This document shows, piece by piece, positions 34,014 to 44,378 of a DNA stretch of 64,000 nucleotides. The translations under genes and the position numbers were made by a program. The notes below the pieces were generated by a model that ran no database searches, was not told the DNA's origin, and saw only the letters and a list, made by a program, of their open reading frames with translations. The DNA is taken from assembly GCF_014699075.1 (NCBI RefSeq), contig NZ_JACXAB010000010.1, forward strand, positions 62,001-126,000, read 5' to 3'. The stretch comes from Microvirga sp. (GTDB lineage: Bacteria > Pseudomonadota > Alphaproteobacteria > Rhizobiales > Beijerinckiaceae). The stretch's first letter is position 1; each line of letters starts with the position of its first letter.

Positions 34014-35138
34014 ATGGAGCACAAGCGCGAAGAGCGGGAAGGCCTTGAAGGCAAGGACGGCTTAAGCCTGCTGGGCGATGTGCCCCTCGTGGCCGAGACG
34101 CCCGAGGAGCTTCTCGATGATGAGACGACGCCGATCGCGCGTTTCTTCGTGCGCAACAACGGCCTGCTGCCGGAGCCGGTGATGGATGCGGACGGCTGGA
34201 CCTTCACGGTTGACGGCGAGGTGGAGCACCCGCTGAGTCTGTCGCTCGCGGATCTCAAGAGCCGCTTCCCGCACAAAACCTTCCGCATGGTGCTCGAATG
34301 CGGCGGCAATGGCCGCTCGTTCTTCGAGCCGAAGGCCGAAGGCAATCCCTGGACCAACGGCGGCGTCGGCTGCGCGGAATGGACGGGCGTGTCCCTGGCC
34401 GACGTGCTGCGCGAGGCGGGTCTGAAGGAGAGCGCACTCTTCACCGGCCATTTCGGTGCCGATCCCGACAAGCATGGTAGCCGCGAGCATCAGGCCATGT
34501 CCCGCGGCGTGCCCATCGCCAAGGCCCTGGAGGAGCACACGCTTCTGGTCTGGGGCATGAACGGCGAGCCGCTGCCCTTCATCCATGGCGGTCCCTTGCG
34601 CCTCGTCGTGCCGGGGTGGCCCGGATCGTTGAGCCAGAAATGGCTCAAGCGCATCTGGGTTCGCGACCGGGAGCATGACGGGCCGGGTATGACAGGCTTG
34701 TCCTATCGCCTGCCGGTCCGCCCCCTGGCGCCGGGCTCGGACGGCAGGGACGTGGAGAACCGCATCATCGAATCGATGCCGGTGCGCAGCATCGTCACGG
34801 CACCGGCCGATGGCAGCCGTTATCCGGCGGGCACACGCAGTCTCGCCATTCGCGGCGCGGCCTGGGCGGGAGACGACGCGGTGGCGCGGGTCGAGGTGAC
34901 CCTCGACGGCGGCGCGACCTGGACCGAGGCCGCGATGACGCCGCCGCGCAACCGCTACGACTGGACACGCTGGCAGGTGTCACTCGCCCTGCCTGAGGAT
35001 GGATTTTACGAGATCTTTGCCCGTGCCACAGACTCGACAGGGCGGGCGCAGCCCTTCCGCGCCGCGAACTGGAATCCGAACGGCTATGGCTGCAACGTCA
35101 TGCACCGGGTGGCGGTTACGGTCGGGCCGGAGGTTTGA
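34014..35138 (+). CDS. Sulfite-oxidase-like molybdopterin oxidoreductase
   Basis: 374 residues: a molybdopterin-binding domain (about 50-235) with the Mo-ligand cysteine C96 in LECGGNGR and HGGPLRLVVPGWPG, then an Ig-like Mo-co dimerisation domain (about 255-370). No heme domain and no signal peptide, so it is either cytoplasmic or exported with a partner; the gene next to it encodes no cytochrome. Sulfite is the likely substrate class, not proven. The 3' end overlaps a convergent gene by 23 bp. Confidence 0.88.
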   Translation: MEHKREEREGLEGKDGLSLLGDVPLVAETPEELLDDETTPIARFFVRNNGLLPEPVMDADGWTFTVDGEVEHPLSLSLADLKSRFPHKTFRMVLECGGNGRSFFEPKAEGNPWTNGGVGCAEWTGVSLADVLREAGLKESALFTGHFGADPDKHGSREHQAMSRGVPIAKALEEHTLLVWGMNGEPLPFIHGGPLRLVVPGWPGSLSQKWLKRIWVRDREHDGPGMTGLSYRLPVRPLAPGSDGRDVENRIIESMPVRSIVTAPADGSRYPAGTRSLAIRGAAWAGDDAVARVEVTLDGGATWTEAAMTPPRNRYDWTRWQVSLALPEDGFYEIFARATDSTGRAQPFRAANWNPNGYGCNVMHRVAVTVGPEV

Positions 35139-36770: not shown

Positions 36771-37802
36771 ATGGGTTTCAAGATCGCCGTCGTCGGTGCG
36801 ACCGGCAATGTGGGCCGCGAGATGCTGAGCATCCTTGCCGAGCGGGCCTTCCCGGCCGATGAGGTGGTGGCGCTGGCCTCCCGCCGCAGCCAGGGGTCGG
36901 AAGTCTCCTTCGGCGACCGGACGCTCAAGACAAAGACCCTCGACACCTATGACTTCTCCGACGTCGATATCTGCCTCATGTCCGCCGGCGGCGAGGTCTC
37001 CAAGGAATGGTCGCCGAAGATCGCAGCCCAGGGCGCCGTCGTGATCGACAACTCCTCCGCGTGGCGTTACGACCAGGACGTGCCGCTCGTGGTGCCCGAG
37101 GTGAATGCCGAGGCCCTGCGCGACATGAAGAAGGGCATCATCGCCAACCCGAACTGCTCGACGGCGCAGCTCGTGGTGGCCCTCAAGCCGCTCCATGACC
37201 GCGCCACCATCAAGCGCGTGGTGGTGGCTACCTACCAGTCCGTTTCCGGCGCCGGCAAGGACGGCATGGACGAGCTCGACCGCCAGACCAAGGCGCTCTA
37301 TTCGCTGCAGGACGTGCAGGAGAAGAAGTTCCCCAAGCGCATCGCCTTCAACCTGATCCCGCACATCGACACGTTCATGGAGGACGGGTACACGAAGGAA
37401 GAGTGGAAGATGATGGTCGAGACAAAGAAGATTCTCGACCCGAAAATCAAGCTCACCGCCACCTGCGTGCGCGTGCCGGTCTTCATCAGCCACTCGGAAG
37501 CCGTGAACGTGGAGTTCGAGAACCCGATCTCCGCCGACGAGGCCCGCGACATCCTGCGGTCGTCGCCCGGTGTCATGGTTGTCGATAAGCGCGAGCCCGG
37601 CGGCTACATCACCCCGCACGAGGCCGCCGGCGAAGACGCCACCTACATCTCCCGCATCCGCGAGGACATTACGGTGGAGAACGGCCTGTCGTTCTGGTGC
37701 GTGTCCGACAACCTACGCAAGGGCGCGGCGCTCAACGCGATTCAGATTGCAGAGTCCATGGTCAATCGTGGCCTGCTGAAGCCGAAGAAGCAGGCGGCGT
37801 AA
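36771..37802 (+). CDS. asd: Aspartate-semialdehyde dehydrogenase
   Basis: 343 residues. Reduces aspartyl phosphate to the semialdehyde for Lys/DAP, Thr and Met synthesis. NADP motif GATGNVGREM, active-site C129 in NPNCST, and the second half with RVPVFISHSEAVNVEFE. AGGAGAAG lies before the ATG. It ends at a strong terminator. dapF for the DAP branch is at 8420-9304. Confidence 0.96.
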   Translation: MGFKIAVVGATGNVGREMLSILAERAFPADEVVALASRRSQGSEVSFGDRTLKTKTLDTYDFSDVDICLMSAGGEVSKEWSPKIAAQGAVVIDNSSAWRYDQDVPLVVPEVNAEALRDMKKGIIANPNCSTAQLVVALKPLHDRATIKRVVVATYQSVSGAGKDGMDELDRQTKALYSLQDVQEKKFPKRIAFNLIPHIDTFMEDGYTKEEWKMMVETKKILDPKIKLTATCVRVPVFISHSEAVNVEFENPISADEARDILRSSPGVMVVDKREPGGYITPHEAAGEDATYISRIREDITVENGLSFWCVSDNLRKGAALNAIQIAESMVNRGLLKPKKQAA

Positions 37803-37823
37803 GCAGCTCACTCATCACAATGA

Positions 37824-37850
37824 AAAGGCCGCCTCCGGGCGGCCTTTTTG
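37824..37850 (+). terminator. Terminator after asd
   Basis: AAAAGGCCGCC pairs with GGCGGCCTTTTT around a very short loop, 22 bp after the stop and close to the end of the convergent GH43 gene. Confidence 0.92.
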
Positions 37851-37870
37851 CTTCCAGCATCAGATGGCGG

Positions 37871-39478
37871 TCAAGCGGTCCCGGACAAGGCTTCGCGATA
37901 GCTGAAGAAGTCGAAATCCGCCGGGAATGCGCGCCCGGTCATGTCGTGCGCGGCCATGCCCACGAAGGCTCCCGTGAAGGAACCGTGGGCGCCTGGTCCC
38001 GCCTCGTCGGACAGGATGCTGGCATCGAGAACCGGGCCGACCGGATTCCAGGTTACGCCGTCCTTGGACCAGCGGAATTGCAGCTCCGCCAGGCGCACAT
38101 CGACGCCGAGATGAATCGGACCCTCCGGCAGGAGCAGGTCGCTCTCCAGGGCATAGGTCATCAACGCGTCGGGATGATCCCCGAGGCATGAGATGACCTG
38201 CAGCACGCGCCGTCCGTCGTCATCGGCGGACACTGCCAGGTAATGGAAGCGGGCGCGGTCGTAGTAGCAGATCAGGCCTGCCAGCTGCTGGTAGGTTTCA
38301 GGCTGGAACTCCAGCGATGTTTCGGCCGAGTAGACCCAGGAGGTCTGGCGGCGGGCCACCAGGGCCTGCTCGAACCAGCTGCCGATCGACTCGCGTCCAT
38401 AGAGGCGCAAAAAGCCCGGGCGCGCCGAGAGCGAGAAGATCCGCCCCGGCTCCGGCGTCCGCAGCCACTGGAACGGGGAGGGCAGTTCGGCCTCGTCGAA
38501 ATCGTGGCGCTCGGGCTCCGGCGGGAACGGATGCGGCGGAAGATCCGGCCCTTCGATCTGGAGCGCGGGCACCTGCCCGCCATGGGCTAGGTGGAGCCAG
38601 CCGTCCTCGCCCCAGACCACCCGCTGGATGGCCGTCTCGCGGCCCAGAGGCGAGCGCCGAGTTCCCAGCAGGGGGCGGCTGCACAGATGGGTGTGGAACA
38701 CCTCCCCGGTGGACGTCTCCACATAGAAGCCGTGGCCTGCGCGCTGGAGCGGCGCGTCCGGCGCGTCCTTGCTGGTGATGAGATGGGTGTTGGGGTGAAG
38801 CTCGTAAGGTCCGTCGATGGTTTTTGAGCGCGCCATCGTGACCGCATGGTTGTAGGCGGTGCCGCCTTCGGCCACGGTCAGGTAATACCAGCCGTTGCGC
38901 TTCCAGAGATGCGGCCCTTCGACGAGACCGAGCGGAGAGCCCTTGAAGATGTTCTTGATCGGGCCGACGAGGCGCTGCTCCGTCGGCGAGTACTCCTGCA
39001 GCAGGATGCCGTCGAAGGAGCTGCGGCGGCGGCGATGATCCCACACCATATTGACGAACCACTTGCGGCCGTCATCGTCGTGGAACAGCGACGGGTCGAA
39101 GCCCGAGGAATTCATATAGCTGGGGTCGGACCACGGACCCTCGATGGACGGTGCGGTGACCAGATAATTGTGCGTGTCCTTGAAGTTGCCGAGGCGCCGC
39201 TTCACGTCGGTGTAGATCAGCCAGAACAGGCCATCCGCATAGGTGAGCGCCGGCGCCCAGACGCCGCAGCTGTCCGGGTTGCCCCGCATGTCGAGCTGGG
39301 ATTGGCGGTTCAGCGGACGGCCAGCCAGTCGCCAGTTCACCAGATCGCGCGAGTGGTGGATCTGCACGCCCGGATACCATTCGAAGGTCGAGGTTGCGAT
39401 GTAGTAATCGTCGCCGACCCGGCAGAAGGCCGGGTCCGGGTTGAAGCCCGGCAGGATGGGGTTGCGAATGATGGCCAT
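37871..39478 (-). CDS. Glycoside hydrolase family 43 (beta-xylosidase-like)
   Basis: 535 residues, the two-domain layout of XynB-type GH43: a five-bladed propeller (1 to about 320) with the catalytic base D15 (FNPDPA), pKa modulator D128 (GFDPSLF) and general acid E187 (LVEGPH), and a C-terminal beta-sandwich (about 340-530). No signal peptide, so it acts in the cytoplasm on imported xylo- or arabino-oligosaccharides. No transporter or regulator for sugars is adjacent; it lies 57 bp after the carbonic anhydrase gene. Confidence 0.93.
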   Translation of the reverse strand: MAIIRNPILPGFNPDPAFCRVGDDYYIATSTFEWYPGVQIHHSRDLVNWRLAGRPLNRQSQLDMRGNPDSCGVWAPALTYADGLFWLIYTDVKRRLGNFKDTHNYLVTAPSIEGPWSDPSYMNSSGFDPSLFHDDDGRKWFVNMVWDHRRRRSSFDGILLQEYSPTEQRLVGPIKNIFKGSPLGLVEGPHLWKRNGWYYLTVAEGGTAYNHAVTMARSKTIDGPYELHPNTHLITSKDAPDAPLQRAGHGFYVETSTGEVFHTHLCSRPLLGTRRSPLGRETAIQRVVWGEDGWLHLAHGGQVPALQIEGPDLPPHPFPPEPERHDFDEAELPSPFQWLRTPEPGRIFSLSARPGFLRLYGRESIGSWFEQALVARRQTSWVYSAETSLEFQPETYQQLAGLICYYDRARFHYLAVSADDDGRRVLQVISCLGDHPDALMTYALESDLLLPEGPIHLGVDVRLAELQFRWSKDGVTWNPVGPVLDASILSDEAGPGAHGSFTGAFVGMAAHDMTGRAFPADFDFFSYREALSGTA

Positions 39479-39535
39479 GGATCTTTCCGGGGAACCAACG
39501 GAAGGGCGAGAAACCGTGTGAGCGGCCGAGAGATC

Positions 39536-40213
39536 CTAGCCTTTGACCTCGCGGGCGGAAAACATCGACACGCGTTCCGGCATGTCTTCCACGGCTGGCC
39601 TGAACTCGCCGGTCTCGGGATCGCGCACCATCAGCACGCCGCTGGCGACGCCGAAATAAGCGCCGTGGAGCTGCAGCTTGCCGCGCTCCACCAGGATACG
39701 CACGCACGGGAACGTCATCAGGTTTTTCAGGCTGTTCTCGATGGCGGCGAGCTCCAGCCGCGGCAGATATTCTTCCAGGTTGCCGTCATGGGGCCCCAGC
39801 CGCTCGCCGGCGGGCTTGATCAGGTTCATCCAGCGGCCGATGAAATCGCCCGGGGAGAGCGGGGCGGTCTCGTCGGCAAAGGCGCGCACGCCGCCGCAGC
39901 GGGCATGGCCCAGCACCACGATGTGCTTCACGCGCAGCGCCTGCACGGCGAATTCGAGGGCCGCGGAGGTGCCGTGATAATCGCCGCCGGTCTCGTAGGG
40001 CGGCACGAGGTTCGCCACGTTGCGCACCACGAACAGCTCGCCGGGGCTCGCGTCGAAGATGACTTCGGGCGACACGCGGCTGTCGCAGCAGCCGATCACC
40101 ATCACCTCCGGCGACTGGCCTTTTTCCGCAAGCGCCTCGAAGCGGTTCTTCTCGCGCGGGAAGCGCTCGTCGAGAAACGCGCGATAGCCGTCGGTCAGGC
40201 GAACTGGGAACAT
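39536..40213 (-). CDS. Beta-class carbonic anhydrase
   Basis: 225 residues interconverting CO2 and bicarbonate. Zinc ligands are C42 (with D44 and R46 in CCDSR), H103 and C106 (HARCGG). Cytoplasmic. It lies downstream, on the same strand, of the PII-like and SbtA-type genes, forming a bicarbonate module. Confidence 0.95.
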   Translation of the reverse strand: MFPVRLTDGYRAFLDERFPREKNRFEALAEKGQSPEVMVIGCCDSRVSPEVIFDASPGELFVVRNVANLVPPYETGGDYHGTSAALEFAVQALRVKHIVVLGHARCGGVRAFADETAPLSPGDFIGRWMNLIKPAGERLGPHDGNLEEYLPRLELAAIENSLKNLMTFPCVRILVERGKLQLHGAYFGVASGVLMVRDPETGEFRPAVEDMPERVSMFSAREVKG

Positions 40214-40279
40214 GGGGTCACTCCTATCGTCAGGGACTTATAGGTCGCCGGTCCGCAAGCCTCAACGGGGTCGAGGCGG

Positions 40280-40591
40280 TCAAAAGTGGTCGGAGCGGAT
40301 GACCTGCACGTCGGAGATGGTGACGATGCCGATATGACGGGCCACCACCGCATAGACCTCGTCGAGAACGGGATCGAGCCGGGCCGGGTCGGTGATGCAG
40401 ATCACCATCATCATGCGGCCCGCATCGCCCGCGAGCCCTTCGCTGCTCCAGAGGCCGTCATGGCCGCGGCCGGCGAGGGCGGGCACCACCGTGTAGCCCG
40501 TCACCTGGGCGCGGTCGAGACGATCCAGGAGCCGCCGGAGAGCCGGATATTCGACGACGATCTCGATGCGCTTCTTCGGATGGGTCTGCAT
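40280..40591 (-). CDS. PII-like protein, SbtB-type
   Basis: 103 residues. The fold pattern is PII-like: an opening beta strand (KKRIEIVVEYPALRRLLDRLD), a T-loop region in GYTVVPALAGRGHDGLWSS and a closing strand IGIVTISDVQVIRSD. SbtB proteins bind adenine nucleotides and control the bicarbonate transporter SbtA. The start just after the AGGAAACGATC stretch is used, 22 bp after the SbtA-type gene. The cyanobacterial C-terminal redox cysteines are absent. Confidence 0.82.
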   Translation of the reverse strand: MQTHPKKRIEIVVEYPALRRLLDRLDRAQVTGYTVVPALAGRGHDGLWSSEGLAGDAGRMMMVICITDPARLDPVLDEVYAVVARHIGIVTISDVQVIRSDHF

Positions 40592-40613
40592 GATCGTTTC
40601 CTCCGCGAGAGCG

Positions 40614-41594
40614 CTACTCTGCCACGAGACCGGCCAGGGCCAGATAGAGGGGGATCCCAAGGGACAGATTGAACGGAAAAGTCACCCCGAGCGAGAGGGT
40701 GAGATAGATGGCGGGCTTCGCCTCCGGCAAGGCGAGACGCATGGCGGCCGGAACTGCGATGTAGGAAGCCGAAGCTGCGAGCGTCACGAACAGGGCAGCT
40801 CCCCCTAAGGAGAGCCCCAGCGGCCAGATGGCGAGGGTGGCGAGCGCTGCGCTGATCAGCGGCATGACGATGCCGAAGCCCAGCACCGGCGCCGAGAGAT
40901 GGCGCGCGCCCTCGCGCATGCCGCGCCCCGCCACGAGGCCCATGTCGAGCAGGAACAGGCACAGCACGCCGCGGAACGGATCGACGATGAAGGGTGCAAT
41001 CATCCCTAGGCCCTTGGGACCGGTGGCCCAGCCGATGAGGAATGAGCCCACCAGCATCACCACCGAGCCGTTGAGGCCGACCTCATGCAGAAGAGGCCCA
41101 AGCCCCTCGTTTCCGTTCCTCGTCGGCTGTCTACTGCGGGCGAGCAGCAGCGCGGAGAGAATGGCGGGTGTTTCCATCACGGCCGCCACGGCGACGATGT
41201 AGCCCTCGAAGGGCAGGTTCTGCCCGCGCACGATCTCGGTCGCGGCAATGAAGGTGACGATGGAGATCGAGCCGTAATGGGCCGCCACCGCGGCCGCATC
41301 CATCGTGGAGAGGCCGGAGACCGCACGCAGGATCATGAAGCCGATGACCGGCAGGGCGAAGGACAGGGCGATTCCCACTCCCATCACGCCGATCATGCGA
41401 AGGGTGATGCCGTTGGCCGCCACCTCCACCCCGCCCTTGAAGCCGATGGAGAGCATCAGGTAGAGCGCGAGCGTCTTGGCCACCGCCTCGGGCACCGTGA
41501 GGTCCGAGCGTGCGAGCGCTGCGGCCAATCCCAGGGCGAAGAACAGCACCATGGGCGACAGCAGATTTTGGGCGGCGAGGTTGACAAGACTCAC
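40614..41594 (-). CDS. SbtA-type sodium-dependent bicarbonate permease (DUF897)
   Basis: 326 residues with about ten membrane helices in two inverted halves; the family cores GFKGGVE (first half), HYGSISIVTFIAATE, and the second-half LLDMGLVAG and ASASYIAVPAAMRLALPEA are visible. SbtA imports bicarbonate with Na+. It heads a same-strand set with the PII-like (SbtB-type) gene and a beta carbonic anhydrase, which supports the function. Confidence 0.9.
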   Translation of the reverse strand: MSLVNLAAQNLLSPMVLFFALGLAAALARSDLTVPEAVAKTLALYLMLSIGFKGGVEVAANGITLRMIGVMGVGIALSFALPVIGFMILRAVSGLSTMDAAAVAAHYGSISIVTFIAATEIVRGQNLPFEGYIVAVAAVMETPAILSALLLARSRQPTRNGNEGLGPLLHEVGLNGSVVMLVGSFLIGWATGPKGLGMIAPFIVDPFRGVLCLFLLDMGLVAGRGMREGARHLSAPVLGFGIVMPLISAALATLAIWPLGLSLGGAALFVTLAASASYIAVPAAMRLALPEAKPAIYLTLSLGVTFPFNLSLGIPLYLALAGLVAE

Positions 41595-41648
41595 GGCAAC
41601 AAACCCGTATGTGCGGAGAGAGGGATTAGGACAGAGAAGCCTCTGGCA

Positions 41649-42587
41649 TCATGCCGTCAGTTCCGCCAGGCGCACGAGCTCCACATTGGCCCCGCAGAGC
41701 AGCACGCCGACGCGCTCACCCGGCTGGGGCGTGTAGGCACCTGACATCAGCGCGGCCAGCGCCGCCGCGCCGCCGGGCTCGGACGCGATGCGGTAGTCGC
41801 GCCAGAGCAGCCTTTGCGCGTCGCGGATGGCCGCATCGGTGACCAGCGCCACGTGATCGACGCTCTCACGGCAGACCTCGTAGACCAGATCGCCGGTGTT
41901 CTTGGCGCCGAGCGAATCGGCCGCCACCGAATCGATCTCCACGTCGACCGGGCCGCCGGCTTCAAGCGCTGCATGGAGCGCCCGCGAGCCTTCCGGCTCC
42001 ACGCCCACCACCTTCACGCGGCCGGCCCACCAGCTCGCGACACCGCTGATGAGGCCGCCGCCGCCCACCGCGATGAGCACCGTGTCGAGGGCAGGGCCGT
42101 CCTGCTCCCATTCCAGCGCCGCCGTGCCCTGGCCGATCATGGTGCTTTCCGCAGCAAAAGGATGGATGCGCAGGGCGCCCGATTCCGCAACGAAGCGGTC
42201 GCAGGCTTCCTGGGCGTCGGCGTAGCGTGCGCCGCCGATCACCACCTCGGCGCCGTGCGAGCGGATGACCGCGATCTTCGCGGGGCTCGAGATCTCCGGC
42301 ACGAAGATGCGGGCCTTCACGCCGAGCCGGCTCGCCGCATAGGCCACAGCGGCTCCATGGTTTCCGCCGGAGGCTGCCGCCACGCCGGCGGACGGCACCT
42401 CCTGCGACAGGAGAGCGTTGAAGGCGCCGCGCGTCTTAAACGAGCCGGCGTGCTGCAGGAACTCGAGCTTCAGGCTCACCGGCCCGTCATGGCCGAAGGC
42501 ATTTCCCAAGTGCAGGACCGGGGTGCGGCGCACGTACGGGGCGATGCGGGCATGGGCGGTTTCGATCTCGGCGCGGGTGATGGTCAT
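41649..42587 (-). CDS. Threonine/serine dehydratase-like PLP enzyme
   Basis: 312 residues, fold-type II PLP family. Cofactor K51 in GSFKTRGA; SGGNHGAAVAYAA substrate loop; Gly-rich GGGGLISG phosphate cup. The length, lacking a C-terminal regulatory domain, fits catabolic or serine/threonine dehydratase or racemase relatives. The ATG overlaps the stop of the DUF429 gene (ATGA), so the two are translated together. Confidence 0.9.
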   Translation of the reverse strand: MTITRAEIETAHARIAPYVRRTPVLHLGNAFGHDGPVSLKLEFLQHAGSFKTRGAFNALLSQEVPSAGVAAASGGNHGAAVAYAASRLGVKARIFVPEISSPAKIAVIRSHGAEVVIGGARYADAQEACDRFVAESGALRIHPFAAESTMIGQGTAALEWEQDGPALDTVLIAVGGGGLISGVASWWAGRVKVVGVEPEGSRALHAALEAGGPVDVEIDSVAADSLGAKNTGDLVYEVCRESVDHVALVTDAAIRDAQRLLWRDYRIASEPGGAAALAALMSGAYTPQPGERVGVLLCGANVELVRLAELTA

Positions 42588-43324
42588 GAGCTGCGCAGCG
42601 TCCAGATGGCGACCGGCAGGCCTTGGGCGTCGCGGCCGAGCGGGTCGGGAAAGGGTTGTCCTCCACCTCTCGCGATATCCAGCGCCACGGTCAACCCCGC
42701 GAGCGCATCGAGCAGATCGTCCTGCGCCGCTCCGCGCGGCGGCGATGCGTGGATCAAGCCCTCGGGCAGGAGACCGGACCGGCTGAGAAGCCCGCGCCGC
42801 AGGGCCATCCCCGGCCCATAGGGCGTGCCCTTGACCTTCTTCGGCTGTTCGAGAGCCTGACGGCCGTTCAGCGCCCAGAACGCGAGTTCCGGATGCACTT
42901 CGTAGACGCGCGTCGTCAGGTCGGGCCGGGCGCGCAGCAGGGCGTCGATCTCGCGGATCTTGGGAAAGATCGCAAAGCCCTGGCGCGAGACTTTCCGGGG
43001 CGGCTCGGAGGTGGCGGCTGCGATTGCGCAGGCGTCCCCATAATCCTCTGCCTCCACGGCGCGGCGCGAGGGAATGGCGAAGACGGAGGATTGCCGCTGC
43101 CCGAGGAGCGGACGGATCAGCTGCTCCGGCAACCGCCCCGAGCCTTGGGTTGTCTCGGGCAGGCCGATGGGCATGTCGACGGCGATGACGGCGGGCTGCT
43201 CCGGGGCATCCGCGATGGCGGCAAACGCCGGAGCCGTCATGATGCGGTGGGTGTGCGGATCGTCCACACGCATCAGCACCGCGATCCACCCGGCCCGGCA
43301 GCCATCGACTCCTGCAACCCACAT
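42584..43324 (-). CDS. DUF429 family protein (predicted RNase H-like fold)
   Basis: 246 residues with the family start VAGVDGCRAGW, AVDMPIGLP, the RQSSVFAIPSRRAV segment and EVHPELAFWALNG; acidic residues in these motifs resemble an RNase H-like active site. Biological role unknown. GGAGGAG 6 bp before the ATG decides the start; an in-frame GTG at 43339 overlaps that site. It is the first gene of a pair with the dehydratase. Confidence 0.88.
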   Translation of the reverse strand: MWVAGVDGCRAGWIAVLMRVDDPHTHRIMTAPAFAAIADAPEQPAVIAVDMPIGLPETTQGSGRLPEQLIRPLLGQRQSSVFAIPSRRAVEAEDYGDACAIAAATSEPPRKVSRQGFAIFPKIREIDALLRARPDLTTRVYEVHPELAFWALNGRQALEQPKKVKGTPYGPGMALRRGLLSRSGLLPEGLIHASPPRGAAQDDLLDALAGLTVALDIARGGGQPFPDPLGRDAQGLPVAIWTLRSS

Positions 43325-43341
43325 TCGTGTCTCCTCCACCT

Positions 43342-43440
43342 GTCATCCCCGGCGAGCCGCAGGCGAGGGAAGGGGATCCACCCGCACGCTTAGCGCTACG
43401 GATTCCCTTCCCCTCCGCTGACGCTCCGGCCGGGAATGAC
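43342..43440. repeat. Palindromic repeat, shortened A-like copy
   Basis: 99 bp bounded by GTCATCCCCGGC and CCGGGAATGAC, with an inner pair GGGAAGGGGATCC and GGATTCCCTTCCCC. It sits between divergent genes and therefore upstream of both starts. Confidence 0.75.
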
Positions 43441-43496
43441 ACTGTTCTTCAACCTCGGCCACGATTAAAACCAGTCTGCCGTTTTAAGGAAAAGCC

Positions 43497-44378
43497 ATGA
43501 CCGCCATCCGCCCGCGCCGCAGCGCGCTCTACATGCCGGGCTCCAACGCCAGAGCCATCGAGAAGGCGAAGACGCTGCCCACGGATGTTGTGATCTTCGA
43601 CCTCGAGGACGCGGTGGCGCCGGACGTGAAGGCTGTAGCGCGCGAGCAGGTCTGCGCGGCGGTGCAGGCCGGCGGCTACGGGAGACGCGAGCTGGTGATT
43701 CGCATCAACGCCCTTGAGACACCCTGGGGCGAGGCGGATCTCGCGGCGGCCGTGGCGGCGGCGCCCGACGCGATCCTTGTGCCGAAGGTGTCGGCGGCGG
43801 AGACGCTCGCGGCTGTGGGCCTGCGCCTGCGCCGCTTAGGTGGCGCGGAGCGCACCCGGGTCTGGGCCATGATCGAGACGCCGCTTGCGATCCTGAATGC
43901 GGAATCGATTGCCAGTGCAGCCCGCGATGTGGACACGCGGCTCGACTGCCTTGTGATGGGCACGAACGATCTCGCCAAGGACACCCGCACACGGCTGCTG
44001 CCGGGACGGGCCGCGATGCTGCCCTGGCTCATGACGGCGCTTGCCGCCGCACGCGCCCATGGCATCGACATTCTCGACGGGGTCTACAACAATCTCTCCG
44101 ATGCGGAGGGCTTCCGCACCGAGTGCGAGCAGGGCCGCGATGGCGGCTTCGACGGCAAGACGCTGATCCACCCGGATCAGATCGCCGCCGCCAACGAGAT
44201 TTTCGCGCCGTCAACGGAGGAGGTGGAGAGCGCCCGCGCCATCGTGGCGGCCTTCGACCAGCCGGAGAATGCAGGCAAGGGCGCAATCAATCTCAACGGT
44301 CGCATGGTCGAGCGGCTGCATGCGGAGATGGCGCGGCGCGTGCTGGCATTGGCGCAGGTGATAGCGGAACGCACTTAA
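43497..44378 (+). CDS. HpcH/HpaI-family CoA ester lyase (citrate-lyase-beta/malyl-CoA-lyase-like)
   Basis: 293 residues of the CitE superfamily. Features: RRSALYMPGSNARAIEKA, DLEDAV with a metal-binding acid, RINALETPWGEAD, a second metal Glu in AMIETPLAI, and GFDGKTLIHPDQI. Family enzymes cleave or form malyl-, beta-methylmalyl- or citramalyl-CoA. No neighbouring gene settles the substrate. A B-C-B repeat starts 2 bp after the stop. Confidence 0.9.
   Translation: MTAIRPRRSALYMPGSNARAIEKAKTLPTDVVIFDLEDAVAPDVKAVAREQVCAAVQAGGYGRRELVIRINALETPWGEADLAAAVAAAPDAILVPKVSAAETLAAVGLRLRRLGGAERTRVWAMIETPLAILNAESIASAARDVDTRLDCLVMGTNDLAKDTRTRLLPGRAAMLPWLMTALAAARAHGIDILDGVYNNLSDAEGFRTECEQGRDGGFDGKTLIHPDQIAAANEIFAPSTEEVESARAIVAAFDQPENAGKGAINLNGRMVERLHAEMARRVLALAQVIAERT

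Follow-up and report, generated by a model that had tools for sequence, protein, structure and literature searches.

A predicted bicarbonate transporter, PII-like protein and carbonic anhydrase cluster in a Microvirga genome without Rubisco

The bicarbonate transporter SbtA and its PII-like partner SbtB are known mainly from the cyanobacterial CO2-concentrating mechanism. In Synechocystis SbtA, bicarbonate was docked to residues S114, Y140, S324 and S327, and alanine at any of the four left transport at ~10-40% (Liu et al. 2021, PMC8352866). More broadly, genes of the inorganic-carbon toolkit are described, in the excerpted text of a review, as widespread in both autotrophs and heterotrophs and more abundant in autotrophs (PMC10880623). 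Excerpts of two reports concern Alphaproteobacteria: in the Rubisco-less 'Candidatus Phycosocius', Sbt was proposed to serve anaplerotic CO2 assimilation (PMC10008586), and in SAR11 IIIa.3/LD12, not known to grow on inorganic carbon, an SBT permease was noted and an anaplerotic use hinted at (PMC10030771). An anaplerotic use of Sbt by an alphaproteobacterium lacking Rubisco has been proposed in print before; among the listings and abstract openings of open-licence PubMed Central articles, we found no report of a conserved cluster of SbtA, SbtB and carbonic anhydrase (CA) in Rubisco-less bacteria. Here we describe such a cluster in a 64,000-nucleotide stretch of Microvirga sp. ("the window", G000:C3:62001-126000), part of a 6.62-Mb genome in 101 contigs that is 100% complete by its own estimate.

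The three genes follow one another on the minus strand in the order sbtA, PII-like gene, CA gene (Table 1), and profile scores agree with their initial annotation as a bicarbonate permease, its PII-like regulator and a beta-CA. The SbtA protein covers positions 1-307 of the 308 in its family profile, and a profile built from 24 sequences matched Synechocystis SbtA (PDB 7cye) with an E-value of 7.5e-42. Its AlphaFold model (predicted local distance difference test, pLDDT, 85.4) superposes on Synechocystis SbtA 8zor with a template modelling (TM) score of 0.91, and the five top PDB matches are all SbtA (query TM 0.83-0.91), with bile-acid symporters ranking behind. Judging from family and fold, the protein most likely imports bicarbonate with Na+.

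The neighboring PII-like protein also reaches the DUF190 profile (PF02641, 31.1 bits vs. a cut-off of 23.4), and a profile of 22 sequences retrieved CPII 5d4n (1.6e-16) ahead of the SbtB proteins of Cyanobium (7.4e-9) and Synechocystis (4.8e-7). The predicted structure (pLDDT 89.3) has a PII-type fold and is closest to CPII 5d4o, solved with ADP, AMP and bicarbonate (TM 0.88), although the TM ranges of CPII chains (0.73-0.88) and of the cyanobacterial SbtB chains among the 50 matches listed (0.67-0.76) overlap. By analogy with that CPII structure, the protein may bind adenylates, bicarbonate and SbtA. It ends at F103 (...VIRSDHF), so that the CGPxGC redox loop is absent, as the initial annotation had observed of the cyanobacterial C-terminal cysteines. 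This is no oddity: in all 76 PII-like relatives whose stop codon can be seen, the protein likewise stops at residue 103, which is F in 74, and the last eight residues never include a cysteine (a 77th relative, L092, is cut by a contig end and was left out). Cyanobium SbtB also lacks the loop, which is thus not required of an SbtB, and excerpts of the same report have loop-less cyanobacterial SbtB respond mainly to energy state (PMC10991534).

The nearest solved sequence to the third protein is pea beta-CA (1ekj, E-value 1.8e-36). C42, D44, R46, H103 and C106 are all in place, comprising the C, H, C zinc ligands and the D/R pair that we take to be the functional residues of the beta-CA family. 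A profile search for this class of CA matched no other gene of the genome; the protein is an ordinary Pro_CA protein that is not CsoSCA and shows no export signal by eye.

We consider it probable, with the reservations set out below, that these genes form a regulated bicarbonate-supply cluster for ordinary carboxylases in a bacterium without Rubisco. SbtA would import bicarbonate with Na+; the PII-like protein would form a trimer, sense adenylate charge and perhaps bicarbonate, and plug SbtA when import is unwarranted; the cytosolic beta-CA would hold CO2 and bicarbonate at equilibrium. Bicarbonate would in this way stay available to biotin-dependent and other carboxylases when CO2 outside is low. 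We count for this reading that, in excerpts of the respective reports, Sbt of Thiomicrospira pelophila rescues CA-null E. coli (PMC12628692), and MpsAB and CA of S. aureus replace each other (PMC6689103). In bacterial CO2-concentrating mechanisms, an excerpted account has CA act only inside the carboxysome (PMC9894237), whereas the CA of the window is probably free in the cytosol. Such a CA beside a pump is not a CO2-concentrating mechanism, and the "CO2-concentrating logic" first ascribed to the cluster is misleading.

Of the four modelled bicarbonate ligands, two are kept in the SbtA of the window (S114 as S111, S324 as S277), and both are invariant across 30 SbtA sequences. Further support for bicarbonate as the substrate of this SbtA subfamily comes from genome G163, where a carboxysome operon runs SbtA-PII-cbbL-cbbS-csoS2-csoSCA, followed by a shell gene. 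Its SbtA is 43% identical to that of the window and carries the same HYGS and SASYIAVP motifs. Since bicarbonate is the cargo expected there, the operon supports, although it does not prove, this assignment.

The initial annotation had seen no Rubisco or carboxysome gene in view, and for Rubisco this extends to the whole genome (carboxysome shell genes were not searched genome-wide). A profile search returned a single RuBisCO_large match, in a 421-aa gene, scoring 208.7 bits vs. >400 bits for Rubisco in relatives. Its nearest PDB entry is 3nwr, 'A rubisco-like protein' (E-value 8.9e-174), and its gene lies 14 bp before one for an OiaK-like kinase. Compared with OiaX and OiaK, the two proteins reach 412 and 256.8 bits, both below the cut-off of 700, and they probably take part in acid-sugar breakdown, judging from these resemblances. 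Hidden autotrophy was considered and rejected, as the only candidate is Rubisco-like and sits beside this kinase.

Possible users of the bicarbonate are the products of three biotin-carboxylase genes, whose open frames in this genome are 464, 666 and 680 aa long, in line with the suggestion that the cluster may feed carboxylases other than Rubisco. The ethylmalonyl-CoA route, also named at the outset as a candidate user, was discarded: no crotonyl-CoA carboxylase/reductase (ccr) scored above the cut-off, the best match reaching 88.1 bits vs. 378.55.

To place this genome in context, we compared SbtA and Rubisco across 297 genomes of the order (Rubisco counted at E < 1e-120) and 385 alphaproteobacterial genomes (Rubisco counted at >=360 bits); the two samples share at least five genomes, some genomes are incomplete, and the counts ignore kinship. 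In the order sample, SbtA was above cut-off in 46 genomes and Rubisco present in 81, with both in only two (G163 and G280), leaving 44 of the 46 SbtA genomes without a full-grade Rubisco match; besides those two, 15 SbtA genomes, our own included, have only weaker matches that are of Rubisco-like grade or possibly fragments (G103, 1.6e-34). Across the class, 73 genomes have SbtA and 24 Rubisco, with both in three (G404, G506 and G689, whose SbtA neighborhoods were viewed solely for the window's proteins), so that 70 of 73 lack a Rubisco match; genome size is 1.0-1.6 Mb in 18 of the 73 SbtA carriers, and not all of these genomes are complete. SbtA without Rubisco is thus widespread in Alphaproteobacteria and not a curiosity of one genome. 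Rubisco is depleted among SbtA carriers of the order (2/46 vs. 79/251, Fisher p-value 4.5e-5, species not being independent), but no depletion was seen in the class sample (3/73 vs. 21/312, p-value 0.59), and it is therefore safe to call SbtA independent of Rubisco, and not safe to say that it avoids Rubisco. Separately, nine loci from genomes of 1.1-1.4 Mb (L188-L196) all have SbtA, with the window's SbtB and CA unmatched nearby in eight; SbtB is present in L196, and the L194 stretch is only 3.3 kb long.

Conservation of the cluster was examined in the best 80 of 583 confirmed loci, a set biased to close relatives (nearest SbtA in Microvirga lenta, 88%). The PII-like gene directly follows SbtA on the same strand in 77/80. 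A CA gene is found no more than 2 kb from SbtA in 36/80, and in 34 of the 68 loci that extend 3 kb to either side. Among the three genes per side given by a simple gene caller, CA is the commonest neighbor family, followed by asd (aspartate-semialdehyde dehydrogenase, 19 loci), an M17 aminopeptidase (19) and a LysR-regulator group (11). A rough estimate from gene density gives less than one of 80 by chance, so the adjacency is beyond chance, even if these are related loci and not 36 independent events. The CA gene is downstream in 15 loci (12 Hyphomicrobiales, two Thalassospira, one unplaced), upstream in 20 (19 Rhodobacterales and Maritalea) and on the other strand in one. A quick CA tree groups the 50 other rows into one clade (93% by the Shimodaira-Hasegawa approximate likelihood ratio test, SH-aLRT, not starred) apart from the upstream Rhodobacterales kind, whose own support is only 56; Thalassospira sits on a long branch, its place unsure, and L076 and G039 have a distantly related CA next to SbtA. 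Gene order takes two forms and CA falls into at least two lineages, so SbtA and CA were brought together, or brought back together, on more than one occasion.

Elsewhere, the arrangement dehydratase-SbtA-SbtB-CA recurs in three loci of other families (L022 = G181, L071, and L074, the locus of L025 = G072), and of the 30 CA loci retrieved within the family, three (our own included) have SbtAB adjoining CA. In the order sample, 23 of the 29 other fetched SbtA loci have an SbtB match (L005, one of the other six, has a PII gene by Pfam), and L020 carries a distant CA on the other strand beside SbtA. Two further neighbors were recorded: the M17 aminopeptidase (L142 7309-8697, minus strand, and its group) stands mostly two or three genes before SbtA, and in L075 (7277-9274) plus four more loci the cluster has a methylmalonyl-CoA mutase gene upstream (annotated in one representative), which may hint that propionyl-CoA carboxylase uses the bicarbonate.

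Within the genus, full-length SbtA occurs in seven of 48 genomes and a CA match in 47, and the space between the dehydratase and CA genes either holds sbtAB or lacks it cleanly. The dehydratase gene ends within 50 bp of the CA start in 22 of 24 fetched sbtAB-less loci; in L182 the dehydratase was not seen, and in L157 (G331, about 700-1500) ~800 bp of other sequence occupies the sbtAB site. An eighth genome, L154 (G347), lacks the usual sbtAB and carries, on a separate contig, a fragment of a distant SbtA (query 214-324, 45%). Identity to the other carriers declines roughly in parallel for sbtA, dehydratase and CA, and in the dehydratase plus CA tree the sbtAB-less G357, G346, G337 and G371 nest inside carriers on starred branches, both of which speak against a recent gain in the window's strain as the simple story. 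The trees require four and five changes and do not by themselves tell gain from loss; for these four genomes loss is preferred because one loss is simpler than three gains. Old presence of sbtAB with repeated loss appears to be the better reading, which is not a proof, and exchange of the locus between strains is a possible alternative.

Several observations weigh against a bicarbonate-supply cluster. A pump and a free cytosolic CA partly oppose each other. None of the three biotin-carboxylase frames is of the size expected for pyruvate carboxylase. The CA gene has its own promoter-like site and occurs without sbtAB in most of the genus, and in the order sample a same-strand CA lies within the 1.5-kb flanks of only 4 of the 29 other SbtA loci. 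Finally, two of the four modelled bicarbonate ligands are changed in the alignment (Y140 to A137, S327 to A280), and A137 and A280 are conserved in at least 90% of 30 SbtA relatives.

The first of these points would be accommodated by pH control, in which SbtA would import bicarbonate, the cytosolic CA would dehydrate it with a proton and the CO2 would diffuse out, so that the pair consumes cytoplasmic protons while the PII-like protein limits the Na+ cost. This would account for a pump kept beside a free CA, wasteful in a concentrating mechanism, and fits the rarity of Rubisco among SbtA carriers. However, both the CPII-type regulators and the SbtA copy of the carboxysome operon suggest carbon supply instead, CA is found across the genus mostly without sbtAB, and no acid-stress gene appeared among ten annotated neighbor representatives (two of them without a family). 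We regard pH control as rather unlikely and yet a rival worth testing, with carboxylase supply the likeliest role.

Alternatively, only SbtA and the PII-like protein would form a unit, with CA a housekeeping gene next door. The 22-bp gap between sbtA and sbtB suggests that these two are co-transcribed, whereas 66 bp separate sbtB from CA and hold the element TTGAGG-N17-TATAAG, which resembles a promoter, so CA may be expressed independently of sbtAB. This element was first noticed by eye and the search pattern fixed afterwards; it occurs once in the 64-kb window and is kept in six of the seven sbtAB carriers of the genus examined, and an E. coli-type promoter scan of 37800-43600 reported nothing, this element included. 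A bystander role would also be in keeping with CA being the only Pro_CA match in the genome, with its place directly behind the dehydratase gene in sbtAB-less loci, and with the 44/80 loci in which no CA was matched in the 2 kb around SbtA (in part owing to contig ends). Against it, a different CA lineage sits on the other side of SbtA in Rhodobacterales (the 93% split above), and a still more distant CA on the other strand adjoins SbtA in L076 and G039, so that one inherited neighborhood is insufficient as an explanation. We find a bystander CA unlikely; of the single module originally proposed, the adjacency of the three genes stands, and the promoter-like element and the many CA genes without sbtAB call for caution over a fixed unit of three.

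The changes in the SbtA pocket, together with the 24% identity to SbtA in the structural alignment, would also be expected if the alphaproteobacterial subfamily transported another small anion and its link to CA were incidental. The carboxysomal copy L005 likewise lacks Y140 and S327. As the motifs are shared with the SbtA of a carboxysome operon, and SbtA is most often accompanied by a CPII-like protein and CA, we judge a different substrate to be very unlikely. That the genes are a relic of a carboxysome-bearing ancestor is hardly credible: in the samples, four further genomes of this family do have Rubisco (G042, G082, G147 and G255), but the proteins are intact and conserved across orders, and this reading is already disfavored by the rare co-occurrence of SbtA and Rubisco in the order sample (2/46 vs. 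79/251).

Around the cluster, the dehydratase gene and a DUF429 gene lie upstream on the same strand, and the GH43 gene lies downstream of CA, followed by asd on the opposite strand. asd is a frequent neighbor in Alphaproteobacteria (the 19/80 loci above), and GH43 is patchy in the genus among sbtAB carriers and non-carriers alike and was not counted in the module. The PII-like gene has two candidate starts, ATG 40591 behind GGAGGA and TTG 40660 overlapping sbtA, of which the former is likely the true one. Farther away in the window, 34014-35138 encodes a sulfite dehydrogenase-like protein whose best family, SorA, scores 235.5 bits, under the cut-off of 600.

Table 1. Features of the cluster and its surroundings (window coordinates, except the last row).
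Feature	Position	Strand	Description
sbtA	40614..41594	-	326 aa, GTG start; Na+-dependent bicarbonate transporter family; PF05982 368.9 bits (cut-off 27)
sbtB / CPII-like	40280..40591	-	103-aa PII-like protein; PF00543 58.7 bits (cut-off 25)
Beta-carbonic anhydrase (CA)	39536..40213	-	225 aa; PF00484 158.8 bits
Promoter-like element TTGAGG-N17-TATAAG	40237..40265	-	Between sbtB and CA gene
Serine/threonine dehydratase-type pyridoxal phosphate (PLP)-dependent enzyme	41649..42626	-	Upstream boundary of sbtAB; PF00291; NF006094 424.7 bits (vs. 331)
GH43 beta-xylosidase-type gene	37871..39478	-	Downstream of CA; PF04616, PF17851
asd, aspartate-semialdehyde dehydrogenase	36771..37802	+	Convergent with cluster; NF011456 534.1 bits
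Rubisco-like protein beside OiaK-like kinase	G000:C13:321747-322583 (L002:1489-2754; kinase 188-1474)	- (both, in L002)	RuBisCO_large match

It is tempting to speculate, and we do so tentatively and at low confidence, that SbtA, a CPII-type regulator and a cytosolic CA make up an old bicarbonate-homeostasis module of heterotrophic Alphaproteobacteria whose PII-like protein directly senses adenylates and bicarbonate, and that carboxysome-linked SbtA-PII pairs of autotrophs, such as that of G163, were recruited from it. If so, the transporter step of CO2-concentrating mechanisms would predate the acquisition of carboxysomes. The finding bears on how such mechanisms are assembled, as their transporter part is common outside autotrophy, and it opens both the bicarbonate supply of heterotrophs and the control that a PII-like protein would exert on it to tests in bacteria that can be cultured.

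Among described systems, CPII of Thiomonas intermedia (PDB 5D4L-5D4P, 5DRK, 5DS7) matches the PII-like protein best in both sequence and structure. We take this CPII to be carboxysome-associated, whereas no carboxysome gene stands beside the PII-like gene of the window. The MpsAB proteins of Staphylococcus aureus are, to our knowledge, unrelated to SbtA. They likewise take up inorganic carbon for anaplerosis in a heterotroph, by other means and with no PII-like regulator in the excerpted description (PMC6689103). Closer in setting are the Sbt transporters of 'Candidatus Phycosocius' and SAR11, for which the excerpts describe no linked PII-like gene or CA cluster. Compared with SbtA-SbtB of Synechocystis (Slr1512-Slr1513; PDB 7CYE, 7CYF, 7EGL, 8ZOR), the Microvirga locus differs in the lack of any Rubisco found, the missing C-terminal cysteine pair, the two changed ligands of four and the adjoining cytosolic CA; what the two have in common is a transporter paired with a PII-like protein, each of the same fold, as predicted here.

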